Positions 44,858 to 63,998 of a stretch of DNA of 64,000 bases are shown here, in pieces (the first letter of the stretch is position 1; each line of letters begins with the position of its first letter). A program made the position numbers and the translations under genes. A model generated the notes under the pieces. The model ran no database searches, was not told where the DNA came from, and was given only the letters and a program-made list of their open reading frames with translations. This stretch comes from Clostridia bacterium (GTDB lineage: Bacteria > Bacillota > Clostridia > Oscillospirales > CAG-272), in the NCBI GenBank assembly GCA_017504405.1, contig JAFVRG010000011.1:62001-126000 (forward strand), in the 5' to 3' direction.

Positions 44858-44969
44858 TTAAAAAAGGGCGCACTTATCCAACTTCATAAGTGAGCCCAGA
44901 CGGTCGGCATAACGGTTTACCCGCAAATTCCTGCTCCCTCGTGGTAACCCACACATCCGTCAGTCGCAG
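44858..44969 (-). ncRNA. ZTP (pfl-motif) riboswitch with terminator, upstream of purE
   Basis: The leader reads ACTGACGGATGTG, GGGTTACCACGAGGGAGC, then GCCGACCGTCTGGGC (44894-44969). These are the conserved pieces of the pfl/ZTP motif: P1 strands GACGG/CCGTC, the CCACGAGGGAGC junction and the CUGGGC pseudoknot side. The terminator arms GGGCTCACTTAT (44886-44897) and ATAAGTGCGCCC (44866-44877), with a T6 tract after them, begin inside the CTGGGC of the aptamer. Ligand-stabilised pseudoknot would therefore prevent the terminator. ZTP/ZMP accumulates when 10-formyl-THF is short, fitting control of purN, purH and fhs. Confidence 0.88.
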
Positions 44970-44991
44970 AAACACCTTATCTACGATAAGA

Positions 44992-52981: not shown

Positions 52982-53204
52982 AAAAAAGATAGCCAAACGG
53001 GGCTACCTCACGCATCGGCAAATCACAAAATACCGAAATAATGATGGGATAGCTCTCCGCAAGAATGCGACAGCAGGGCGGATATTCTCCGAACTGCCAG
53101 CAGAGCGCCTGCCACAGCGCCCAACTTCGGCACCCTCTCCTTTCCCACACGGCCTCGGCGGTCATTTATGTGCGGTACTGATAGACAGGTGCGCCTCTAC
53201 CTTT
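52982..53204 (-). ncRNA. Lysine riboswitch (L box) with terminator
   Basis: On the minus strand the leader begins GGTAGAGGCGCACC and later has GGAGAGGGTGCCGAAGTTGGGCG, two conserved L-box core blocks. Helical arms CTGTGGCAGGCGC, CTGCTGGCAG and CTGTCGCA follow, then GGAGAGCTATCCC. The terminator GGTAGCC-CCGTTT-GGCTATC (52988-53007) ends in TTTTTT. AGCTATC upstream resembles the terminator 3' arm and can serve the alternative fold. Lysine binding should favour termination and shut off dapA-dapB-ddh-lysA. Confidence 0.88.
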
Positions 53205-53216
53205 TTTTACGCTAAT

Positions 53217-60719: not shown

Positions 60720-61649
60720 TTATTCAAACAAAGGAGTTGAGAAATAGCGCTCTGCGGTGTCGGGGAGCACCGTTACTACGGTTTTGCCCTTACCGAGCTT
60801 GCAAGCCAGCTTAATTGCGGCGGCAACGTTCGTGCCGCTGCTGATGCCGCACATTATTCCCTCCTTCGAGGCGAGCTCCTTCGACGCTCTTATCGCCTCG
60901 TCGTCCTTGATGATGCAAACATCGTCGTATATATTCTGATTGAGTATTTCGGGGATTATTCCGTCGCCTATACCCATCTGCACGTGCGTGCCGATTGAGC
61001 CGCCCGACAAAATTGCGGCGTTCTCGGGCTCAACTGCCCATATAGTCATATCGGGATTTGCCTTTTTGAGCGTTTCGCCAATACCGGTTATCGTACCGCC
61101 CGTGCCTATGCCTGAGCAGAAGCCGTGAATAGGGCCGTTAACCTGATTTAAAATCTCGACAGCGGTAACCGAGCGCTGAATTTCGGGATTTGCGGGGTTT
61201 TCAAACTGTTGAGGAACGAAAACGTTTTTATCCTCATCACGCATACGCAGAGCGAGTGCAAGGCACTCCTCAATGCAAAGTCCGATATTTCCGTCATCGT
61301 GCACCAAAATAACCTCGGCGCCGTAATGCTCCACGAGCTTGCGCCTCTCCTCACTCACCGAGTCGGGCATAATTATCTTTACCTTATACCCACGTACAGC
61401 GCCCACGAGCGCAAGACCTATGCCCTGATTTCCGCTGGTCGGCTCGACGATAACGGTGTCCTTGTTTATAAGTCCACGTGTCTCTGCATCGCAAATCATA
61501 TTATAGGCTGTGCGTGTTTTTATAGAGCCGCCGACGTTGAGTCCCTCGAATTTAACGAGGATTTCTGCCATATCACCGTCAACCATTCGGCTAAGCCTTA
61601 TTATCGGGGTGTTTCCCATTGCTTCAAGAATAGAATTGCAAATCATCAT
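60720..61649 (-). CDS. cysK: Cysteine synthase (O-acetylserine sulfhydrylase type)
   Basis: A 309-residue fold II PLP enzyme. GLNVGGSIKTRTAYNMI carries the PLP Lys (the usual KDR is KTR here), VEPTSGNQGIGLALVGAVRG (PTSGN substrate loop), CSGIGTGGTITGIGETLKKA (PLP phosphate loop) and EGIMCGISSGTNVAAAIKLA (Ser near the pyridine nitrogen). It makes cysteine from O-acetylserine and sulfide. Single-gene unit behind a structured leader. The start is ATGATG; codon 1 or 2 may be used, and the RBS (CAGGT) is weak, which fits control through the leader. Confidence 0.93.
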   Translation of the reverse strand: MMICNSILEAMGNTPIIRLSRMVDGDMAEILVKFEGLNVGGSIKTRTAYNMICDAETRGLINKDTVIVEPTSGNQGIGLALVGAVRGYKVKIIMPDSVSEERRKLVEHYGAEVILVHDDGNIGLCIEECLALALRMRDEDKNVFVPQQFENPANPEIQRSVTAVEILNQVNGPIHGFCSGIGTGGTITGIGETLKKANPDMTIWAVEPENAAILSGGSIGTHVQMGIGDGIIPEILNQNIYDDVCIIKDDEAIRASKELASKEGIMCGISSGTNVAAAIKLACKLGKGKTVVTVLPDTAERYFSTPLFE

Positions 61650-61675
61650 ATTACCTGTATGTAAAATTATATGCC

Positions 61676-61743
61676 AAACGGCGCTCGGATTTCAACCGAG
61701 GCTACGGCTACCACCGTGTACTCACCCTATACGACTGCCGTTT
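61676..61743 (-). ncRNA. Unidentified structured leader RNA upstream of cysK
   Basis: 68 nucleotides between a strong promoter and cysK. P1 AAACGGC/GCCGTTT (seven perfect pairs) closes the element. Inside are a weak 3-bp stem GTA/TAC with a nine-base loop, a hairpin ACGG-TGGTAG-CCGT and a hairpin CTCGG-TTGAAAT-CCGAG, giving a cloverleaf-like four-way junction. The last hairpin resembles a tRNA T-arm, but no anticodon arm fits and no discriminator or CCA follows, so it is not a tRNA. It starts about nine bases after the predicted transcription start. No known riboswitch class was recognised. Confidence 0.6.
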
Positions 61744-61758
61744 ATGCATACAATATGT

Positions 61759-61787
61759 ATAATAGCATATTTCTCTATATTTGTCAA
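61759..61787 (-). promoter_or_regulatory. Sigma-A promoter of cysK
   Basis: TTGACA (61782-61787), 17-base spacer ending TGC, TATTAT (61759-61764), directly after the upstream terminator. Confidence 0.82.
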
Positions 61788-61791
61788 CTAA

Positions 61792-61815
61792 AAAAGCGGT
61801 CGTGCGACCGCTTTT
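61792..61815. terminator. Terminator of the two-gene extracytoplasmic cassette
   Basis: Perfect arms AAAAGCGGTC and GACCGCTTTT around GTGC, with T-rich minus-strand end, seven bases after the stop codon. Confidence 0.85.
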
Positions 61816-61821
61816 GCTGTT

Positions 61822-62535
61822 TCAAGTTGTTTCCCGCCAAGATGTGGGGTCAAATGAAGGAATTTGCGTAATGTTGTTACGTCTGTTTTCGTCATACCAA
61901 CAGGATTTTGCCTCGCCCTTCTTGGTTTCTATAATGTTCCAATCCTCGTTTTTATTGCTTCTTGTGAGCTTGGTTCTGTAAATGGGGCTGATATACTGAC
62001 CGAGAGGTGTTGTCGGCTTACCGGGGGTTTTGTTTGAGGTATTGAGCCAGTTGGGCTCTCCTCGCTCACCGAGGTAAACGTCGGTTGTGAAGATGTAGTA
62101 TTCGGTTTCGCTGACTACGTAAATCATAAAGGTAAGATTTATCGCATCTGCGCCGAACAGCTCCTCCATATCCTGACCGCCCGTTACTGCCATACTACCG
62201 AAATAATCTCTCGCCGAATAGCCGAATCCACCGTCAAGGCGGTCGTTTACGTAATCGTTAATAGGGGAATCCGGATTGTTAAGTCCAATTTCCTCGCCGC
62301 TGTCATTCTTTCCTGCAACGAGATTGGTTACCAGCCACGCATGGTTCTCTCCCTCTACGTCATCAGGCAGCTCCTCTGAGCCCTGCCACTTGAACTCCGC
62401 CATTTGGAGAGCAAAGGAATTTTCAACAGGGTTAGCGTATTGAGCGCAGTAGCTCCACGTAGCTGATACTCCGACAGTTGTCATTATCATAATTATGGCA
62501 ACAAGGACTATTACAGATGCTTTGAAGCTTCTCAT
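61822..62535 (-). CDS. Exported protein of unknown function, SipW/TasA-like N-terminus
   Basis: A 237-residue protein, not recognised as a whole. The N-terminus is a long signal-type helix (residues 7-24, SVIVLVAIIMIMTTVGVSAT) followed by WSYCAQYANPVENSFALQM, reminiscent of SipW-dependent signal peptides of biofilm matrix proteins (TasA-like GTYA/F), though this is only a resemblance. The mature part is acidic with WLVTNLVAGKNDSG, FMIYVVSETEYYIFTTDVYL and TTPLGQYISPIYRTKLTRSN, suggesting a beta-rich extracellular domain. Its start overlaps the upstream repeat protein by four bases, so the two are made together. Confidence 0.75.
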   Translation of the reverse strand: MRSFKASVIVLVAIIMIMTTVGVSATWSYCAQYANPVENSFALQMAEFKWQGSEELPDDVEGENHAWLVTNLVAGKNDSGEEIGLNNPDSPINDYVNDRLDGGFGYSARDYFGSMAVTGGQDMEELFGADAINLTFMIYVVSETEYYIFTTDVYLGERGEPNWLNTSNKTPGKPTTPLGQYISPIYRTKLTRSNKNEDWNIIETKKGEAKSCWYDENRRNNITQIPSFDPTSWRETT

Positions 62536-63998
62536 TTCTCCACCTCCAAACGTTCAATGCTGTTGTCGGATACGAGCTTGTTTATAAGCTCTACCGTCCA
62601 ACGTCTTTGTCTTTCGGAGGTTACACGTATTCTCATAGGATAGCGGGCAAATTTCTTGCTCGCCGACATATCCTTGAATACGTATTTGGTGTTTTCATAC
62701 GCCTTGGGGTCGAGGGCGAGGTATGCGTTGAGAGTTTTACCTCTTATCGCAAGCCTTGCTATCGGCAGGTTTTTGTACTTGTAGGTCTGTTGCTTCTTGG
62801 CGCTGATGAGCCTCATTCCCTTTAAGGAATTGAGAAGCCCTGCTATGCTTTCATATCTCTGTTGCATCTCCTTTGAGGTGTGAGAGAGCATCTCGTCAAA
62901 GGTGCGGTTGTCCTCTCTGCCCTCAAGGTGGGCAAACGGTGAGAGCTTTTTCTCCGTCATTTCGGGCGCAAGCTCTACGGGAATAGGCATAGCCCTCTCG
63001 TTTACTGTTATACCGTTGCGATTTGCAAGCTCCATAAGAAGCTCAAGAGTCCAGCGAGTCTGACGCTCTGACGATACCTTTATCCTCATAGGATAGAGCG
63101 CAAAGCGTTTGCTGTGCGACGCATCTGTGAATATGTACTTGCTGTTCTCAAAATCAGCAGTCGGGAGCGCAAGGTAGACGTTGAGAGTCTTACCACGCAT
63201 CGTCAGTCGGGCTACGGGTGTGTTACCGCACTTGTAGGTCTCCTGCTTGCGTGCCTCGATAACTCTTATTCCCTCAAAACGGGACAGAAGCTCCTCTATC
63301 CTGTCGTGACGCTCCTTGACAATTCCGCCTGCAATATCGAGGCGTTCACGGAAGGTTTTATTGTTAACCCTGCCCTCAAGGTGGGCAAAGGGATTGAATT
63401 CATTCTTAATTTCGGCATTTTCCGACTCGACGGGAATTTCCGTCGCTTTCTCGTTTACGGTGATGCCGTTTTTCTCTGCAAGCTCCAAAAGAAGCTCAAG
63501 CGTCCAGCGTGTCTGGCGCTCCGAGGACTGCTTCATTCTCATAGGATAAAGCTTATAATCCTTACTCTTTGAGTAATCCTCGAATACGTATTTTGTATCC
63601 GCATAATCTGCGGGTGTCAGTGAAATAAAGGTGTTAAGCGTTTTACCCCTGAACGCAAGGCGAACTATCGGGGTATTGCCGCATTTATAGGTTCTGCGTG
63701 CTCTGCCCTCAATAACTCTTATTCCCTCAAAGCGTGAGAGAAGCTCGATTATTTGCTCATATCTTTGACGCATACTGTCACTTGACTGTGCGAGTGACTC
63801 GTCAAAGGTTTTGGAATTTGTTCTGCCCTTCAAATGCGCAAAGGGCGATGGCTCAAAGAGGGAGCCGTCGGGATTTAAAAATCCTATTTCGATAAGACGG
63901 CGCATCTTCTCACGGTTGATTTTTTTCTGCAATAAAGGCGAGCCTATGAGCGATGCCACTATGAGCATAACGCACAGCCAGCCTGCGGGGGACTGCAT
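62532..63998 (-). CDS. Membrane-anchored protein of three 151-residue repeats (N-terminus may be outside window)
   Basis: At least 488 residues. An N-terminal membrane span (WLCVMLIVASLIGSPLL) and a short linker lead to three repeats beginning FAHL at residues 53, 204 and 355, an exact 151-residue period. Each has KTF.E.L, RYE.I..LL, a TYKC/Y loop, the RGKTLN.Y.AL core, KY.F.D and a SERQ.RWT.EL helix. RGKTL-type repeats occur in uncharacterised Clostridia proteins; the fold and function are unknown to me. The first ATG is two bases from the window edge, so the real start may lie further upstream. Coupled to the next gene by ATGA. Confidence 0.8.
   Translation of the reverse strand: MQSPAGWLCVMLIVASLIGSPLLQKKINREKMRRLIEIGFLNPDGSLFEPSPFAHLKGRTNSKTFDESLAQSSDSMRQRYEQIIELLSRFEGIRVIEGRARRTYKCGNTPIVRLAFRGKTLNTFISLTPADYADTKYVFEDYSKSKDYKLYPMRMKQSSERQTRWTLELLLELAEKNGITVNEKATEIPVESENAEIKNEFNPFAHLEGRVNNKTFRERLDIAGGIVKERHDRIEELLSRFEGIRVIEARKQETYKCGNTPVARLTMRGKTLNVYLALPTADFENSKYIFTDASHSKRFALYPMRIKVSSERQTRWTLELLMELANRNGITVNERAMPIPVELAPEMTEKKLSPFAHLEGREDNRTFDEMLSHTSKEMQQRYESIAGLLNSLKGMRLISAKKQQTYKYKNLPIARLAIRGKTLNAYLALDPKAYENTKYVFKDMSASKKFARYPMRIRVTSERQRRWTVELINKLVSDNSIERLEVEK

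Follow-up and report, generated by a model that had tools for sequence, protein, structure and literature searches.

Genomic context of the cysK leader

The window, a 64,000-nt stretch of a Clostridia bacterium contig (JAFVRG010000011.1), carries on its minus strand a gene for cysteine synthase A (cysK), which is preceded by a structured element and by two promoter-like sites, P1 and P2 (Table 1). The upstream gene is separated from P1 by a terminator-like hairpin, and transcription from P1 is expected to start at about 61752-61751. Much of this layout had been recognized in an original prediction made from the sequence alone. It described a near-consensus promoter, a 68-nt element consisting of a seven-base closing helix and three hairpins, of which one resembles a T-arm, and an end about 26 bases before a cysK start with a weak ribosome binding site. 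All of these are present: P1 has 11 of 12 consensus matches, the 7-bp closing helix is AAACGGC/GCCGUUU, the T-arm-like hairpin is CUCGG-UUGAAAU-CCGAG, and 26 nt separate the element from the ATG at 61649, with AGG as the only binding motif. The spacing had been underestimated, since the closing helix begins 15 nt after the -10 box and not within ten bases of the promoter.

The second promoter-like site, P2, lies between the T-loop and cysK and was absent from that prediction. Its -35 hexamer TTGAAA (61695) coincides with the T-loop, and its TATAAT ends at 61666, 16 nt before the cysK ATG. When 5000 sequences of this composition were simulated, one of them held a P2-like site with at least 11 of 12 consensus matches.

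No terminator was found between the element and cysK, the only terminator-like match being a weak 6-pair hairpin inside the element; with the terminator absent, P1 is coupled to cysK. Likewise, no terminator, antiterminator or helix sequestering the ribosome binding site is evident in the leader from the element to cysK. The 5' extension UGUAUGCAU is predicted to be able to pair with GCAUAUA (61673-61667) and thereby to lengthen the acceptor helix; it was not seen in the phage relatives examined. Two further candidates were rejected: a switch formed by pairing of the 5' UGUAUG with CAUACA beside the ribosome binding site leaves the AGG free and has no comparative support, and no Cys-rich leader peptide was seen in the leader. 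Elsewhere on the minus strand, the window contains a lysine riboswitch (53042-53207; RF00168, 89.8 bits), a ZMP/ZTP riboswitch (44887-44977; RF01750, 55.8 bits) and, at 62532-63998, a 488-aa open reading frame with three similar repeats of about 130 aa and marginal Pfam matches only.

Table 1 Features of the cysK leader region, in window coordinates; parts of the element follow our own mapping to tRNA numbering.
Feature	Position	Strand	Evidence or detail
Upstream ORF	ends 61822	-	ORF list
Intrinsic-terminator-like hairpin, AAAAGCGGTCG-CAC-GACCGCTTTTTT	61790..61815	-	read from sequence
Promoter P1, TTGACA-17 nt-TATTAT	61759..61787	-	11/12 consensus, TG before -10; TTGACA from 61787, TATTAT ends at 61759
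5' extension UGUAUGCAU	61744..61752	-	predicted from fold
tRNA-like element, SpF41 family, 68 nt	61676..61743	-	covariance model, RF02435 match, covariation
Acceptor strands	61743-61737 with 61682-61676	-	tRNA numbering
Bulged A	61736	-	tRNA numbering
Pair 7-66	61735-61683	-	tRNA numbering
U8	61734	-	tRNA numbering
D-stem	61732-61729 with 61721-61718	-	tRNA numbering
D-loop	61728-61722	-	tRNA numbering
Truncated anticodon-like hairpin	61717-61704	-	tRNA numbering
Variable region	61703-61701	-	tRNA numbering
T-stem	61700-61696 with 61688-61684	-	tRNA numbering
T-loop	61695-61689	-	tRNA numbering
Promoter P2, TTGAAA-18 nt-TATAAT	61666..61695	-	11/12 consensus
Weak ribosome binding site AGG	61654..61656	-	sequence
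cysK, cysteine synthase A, 309 aa	60720..61649	-	PF00291, 1.6e-69; TIGR01139, 358.6 bits, above cut-off

Assignment to the SpF41 family

An Rfam search at gathering thresholds gave no match at the element, and the riboswitch models found only two other sites in the window, a lysine and a ZTP riboswitch. In a permissive search, the element matched SpF41_sRNA (RF02435) with 40.3 bits (E 3e-5), which is below the gathering threshold of 52 bits. The alignment spans the acceptor-like helix, the short hairpin and the T-arm, so that the core of the family with its conserved bases is present; the positions of the model's 3' terminator hairpin remain unmatched, and it is apparently for this reason that the window copy misses the cut-off. 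Our own covariance model (R1), for which the window was among the building sequences, matches at 61674-61745 with 80.8 bits (E 8e-25), and ARAGORN calls no tRNA at the element. From these comparisons we assign the element to the SpF41 family, as a homologue without terminator, and not to a riboswitch class associated with cysK. The original prediction had allowed for a known class gone unrecognized; the family matched here is one of sRNAs and not of riboswitches.

The named relative, F41 (srn277) of Streptococcus pneumoniae, was detected by Northern blotting, and its deletion attenuates sepsis by strain TIGR4 in mice (PMC3395615). In the same species it was recovered together with both RNase Z and the exonuclease Cbf1 (PMC7196914). 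Few strains carry it (PMC12323649), which is what one expects of mobile DNA. The window copy shares with it the core sequence, the acceptor-like helix, the truncated hairpin and the T-arm, but differs in lacking the terminator hairpin of the Rfam model and in directly preceding cysK; in addition, the Rfam structure line contains neither the D-stem nor the tertiary pairs described below. Among open-licence papers, we found none describing SpF41-type RNAs as tRNA mimics or as phage late-region RNAs.

A tRNA-like fold established by covariation

Numbered as a tRNA, the element has a 4-bp stem capped by a tetraloop in place of the anticodon arm, and its acceptor pairs 6 and 7 are separated by a bulged purine. 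Its single-sequence minimum-energy fold is an elongated hairpin (-25.1 versus -20.8 kcal/mol for the cloverleaf), and for some relatives energy folding likewise favours another structure; the full 103-nt leader is more stable than its shuffles (z -3.5). We regard the cloverleaf as established by covariation and not by energy. The covariance model was built from 18 sequences, and the alignment was enlarged to 46. Across 42 distinct sequences, in an alignment that was fitted to the model's structure and leans towards it, 93.5% of cells are paired, both partners vary in 21 of the 23 pairs, and covariation scores 0.566 versus 0.182 in shuffles (0/500 as high) and 0.07-0.12 (maximum 0.115) when partner columns are slid. 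The same covariation result was obtained with the 18-sequence MAFFT alignment, which was not structure-fitted.

Mutual information among 34 non-redundant sequences revealed, beyond the helices, column pairs that match tRNA tertiary contacts, namely 7-66 (GC 27/AU 5), the Levitt pair 15-48 (GC 21/AU 3), 18-55 (GU 23/AG 5), 19-56 (GC 14/UG 13/UA 2) and 22-46 (GG 20/UA 9). The equivalents of U8 and A14 are invariant or nearly so across the family. All tRNA-like contacts and helices are retained in the window copy. Its acceptor strands are only 31% identical to those of the nearest relative and all pairs still form, which argues that the fold has been kept under selection, at least until recently.

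The likeness to tRNA (RF00005) comprises the acceptor, D and T arms, U8, A14 and the four tertiary contacts; the element differs in having no 7-nt anticodon loop and no encoded CCA, in its bulged acceptor purine, and in not being called by ARAGORN. By its sequence, it is best described as a tRNA body unable to decode. T-box leaders also bring tRNA-related RNA into the leaders of amino-acid genes, but they bind tRNA instead of mimicking it, and Rfam gave no T-box match in the window. Compared by description, tRNA-Other of B. cereus is likewise a non-decoding tRNA-like element tied to mobile DNA, for which recruitment into a regulatory RNA has been proposed; it is, however, a single pseudo-tRNA at a genomic island and no anticodon-truncated phage family (PMC3399842).

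Relatives in phages, satellites and chromosomes

A search pattern built from the D-like and T-like parts of the element matched about 20 contigs of IMG/VR and five of GTDB, which share its spaced core of 46 nt. BLAST detected this core in 28 phage records, most of them from Streptococcus phages and satellites and the others from Dorea and Roseburia phages. The approximately 40 distinct relatives reside in phage late regions, Streptococcus satellites, prophage remnants and some chromosomal sites; a plasmid collection gave no match.

In complete phages, the element lies just 3' of a gene of PHROG 9479 (127-136 aa) and just 5' of the terminase genes, an order common to Streptococcus, Dorea and Roseburia phages. 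In clostridial and streptococcal phages alike, an extended -10 box is formed by the W-Y-N codons at the 3' end of the PHROG 9479 gene. PHROG 9479 proteins of the form MGGRG...HTHHGY...WYN, with the -10 box over the last codons, occur at L101, L105, L108 and other phage loci. The protein had no match in Pfam or NCBIfam, and its predicted structure (pLDDT 72.7) showed no meaningful fold match in the PDB.

In its relatives, the element is usually followed by an intrinsic terminator; the usual unit comprises a promoter, the tRNA-like RNA and a terminator. The nearest relative (L073/L136), with 93% core identity to the window copy and 58.8 bits against RF02435 (above the cut-off), is a phage copy between a PHROG 9479-type gene and the genes for the small and large terminase subunits. 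Satellites carry the element after a different gene. A prophage remnant (L160), in which the promoter, the element and its terminator persist next to a disrupted terminase gene, illustrates how a unit of this type can stay behind. The window copy has no phage gene as neighbour, and PHROG 9479 had no match in this genome, in a search whose control likewise matched nowhere.

Several loci showed further arrangements. The satellite Javan160 (L170, 5000-5306) has three tRNA-like copies in a row, including a degenerate one, and then two genes; the homologues of this pair in another satellite encode a Gp49-family (PF05973) and an HTH protein. In a Veillonellaceae sequence (LT608311; L156, 2990-4560), the promoter/tRNA-like/terminator unit is duplicated with its flanks as direct repeats that are 82-88% identical and 1.31 kb apart; a different gene follows each copy, resembling a cassette array, beside a 23S rRNA methyltransferase-like gene. 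In Dorea phage DO134P1 (L164, 5108-5179), an annotated true tRNA-Met directly follows element and terminator. A related tRNA-like element between sigma-factor-like and small zinc-ribbon-type genes occurs in two families of the order (L215, 4085-4155; L217, 4004-4073; element strand) and is possibly a separate conserved tRNA-like leader. Finally, a tRNA-like match of 49.8 bits lies upstream of a valS-like (valyl-tRNA synthetase) gene (L212, 4031-4102).

Distribution among cysK loci and related genomes

We fetched 30 cysK-family loci from the genus and order, one of which is the window's own. According to the covariance model, the element is absent from all 29 others, including 10 orthologues that are 81-86% identical. 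A DNA search of 60 genus genomes found the region only here, with other matches being short and partial. Family matches occurred in 20/394 genomes of the order, 17/391 of the class, 1/398 of the phylum and 6/295 of the family, samples that were scored at differing thresholds and in which many of the weakest matches are ordinary tRNAs; most weak RF02435 matches in relatives were likewise ordinary tRNAs and were dropped. All identifiable relatives elsewhere lie in phages, satellites, prophage remnants or unrelated chromosomal sites. In the genomes sampled the family is rare and scattered, and this scatter fits mobile DNA.

As judged from these loci, the element is not a cysK leader class. The original prediction had proposed a small-molecule or tRNA-related regulator of cysteine synthesis and looked to homologous cysK leaders, Rfam and covariation for its confirmation. 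The tRNA-related part stands, with a tRNA body that holds every major tertiary contact and very strong covariation; regulation of cysteine synthesis is not supported, as related cysK genes are without the element and its relatives belong elsewhere.

Interpretation of the cysK-associated copy

The reading that we consider probable is that a phage-type tRNA-mimic unit was co-opted before cysK, lost its terminator and acts, if at all, via processing or stability. The family would consist of phage- and satellite-borne tRNA mimics without anticodon, whose usual unit would yield a free-standing small RNA, and we infer that the present unit originated from a phage or satellite. With promoter and tRNA-like RNA placed directly before cysK, P1 transcripts would begin with the tRNA-like fold and continue into cysK. 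P2, at the 3' edge of the element, would start a short cysK mRNA near 61660 from which the element is excluded; cysK may hence be transcribed with the element, without it, or both.

The strongest competitor, possible but clearly less probable, is that the unit is a neutral leftover with no cis effect on cysK, which would be driven by P2 and only incidentally by P1, while the RNA functions in trans or has already lost its function. We give this substantial weight because of P2, a strong promoter-like site right at the element's end. It also agrees with the restriction of the element to this species among the 60 genus genomes, with the similar unit in the prophage remnant of another genome and with the lack of a visible expression platform. 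However, intact helices and tertiary contacts and a diverged but fully paired acceptor point to selection until recently at least, and P1 became coupled to cysK once the terminator was lost.

A role as phage late-operon leader in antitermination or attenuation, with the window copy influencing RNA polymerase or offering a binding site while cysK is transcribed, seems improbable to us. The lambda 6S RNA before tR' and the HK022 put RNA are comparison cases, and the phage order of PHROG 9479 gene with an extended -10 box in its 3' end, tRNA-like RNA, terminator and terminase would suit such a leader, as would the clostridial phage copies without an obvious new -10 box between terminator and next gene. 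Yet Streptococcus phages, satellites and L156 do have -10-like boxes after the terminator, copies on chromosomes occur by themselves, antitermination would have no terminator to act on in the window, and the PHROG 9479 model matched no solved fold. In the phages themselves, the element may attenuate or antiterminate transcription ahead of the terminase genes.

A riboswitch sensing O-acetylserine, cysteine or a sulfur compound for cysK is very improbable: the 5' leader position, the compact conserved fold and the weak ribosome binding site would suit it, but all other cysK loci tested are without the element, its relatives precede terminase, toxin-antitoxin-like or unrelated genes and usually have their own terminator, the conserved bases are the tRNA tertiary set, and no switching platform was found. 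Decay of an ordinary tRNA gene is scarcely credible despite the tRNA-like body, since ARAGORN calls nothing and the truncated anticodon arm, the acceptor bulge and the U19-G56 contact are common to the phage relatives and covary, which indicates a separate, maintained family.

For the co-opted unit, the effect on cysK is the least certain part, with processing or stability seeming likelier than ligand sensing. The fold would serve as a 5' structural or processing module for elbow-binding tRNA enzymes (RNase P, RNase Z, exonucleases) and would thereby alter processing or stability of the cysK mRNA. We favour such a role because RNase P, RNase Z or a 3'-5' exonuclease could plausibly bind or process a tRNA elbow in which acceptor and T arm are stacked, and because F41 was recovered together with RNase Z and Cbf1 in a pull-down (PMC7196914). 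The bulged acceptor purine could, however, impede RNase P or RNase Z, and if P2 dominates, the element would hardly touch the cysK mRNA.

With this assignment, a cysK leader of no known class joins a family that Rfam lists solely as an uncharacterised sRNA of Streptococcus. For the family itself, the comparison provides a structure (a tRNA body without anticodon), a genomic home (satellites and the late regions of phages) and PHROG 9479 as a partner gene family. In its widest form, which we hold to be unlikely, SpF41-type RNAs would be mobile anticodon-less tRNA mimics of Gram-positive phages and satellites, serving as decoys for tRNA-handling enzymes or in late-operon control, and their fusion to cysK would here place a cysteine-synthesis mRNA under control of the tRNA-processing machinery. 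The fold predicts RNase P, RNase Z, CCA-adding and T-loop-modifying enzymes as partners, and it fits the reported pull-down with RNase Z (PMC7196914).
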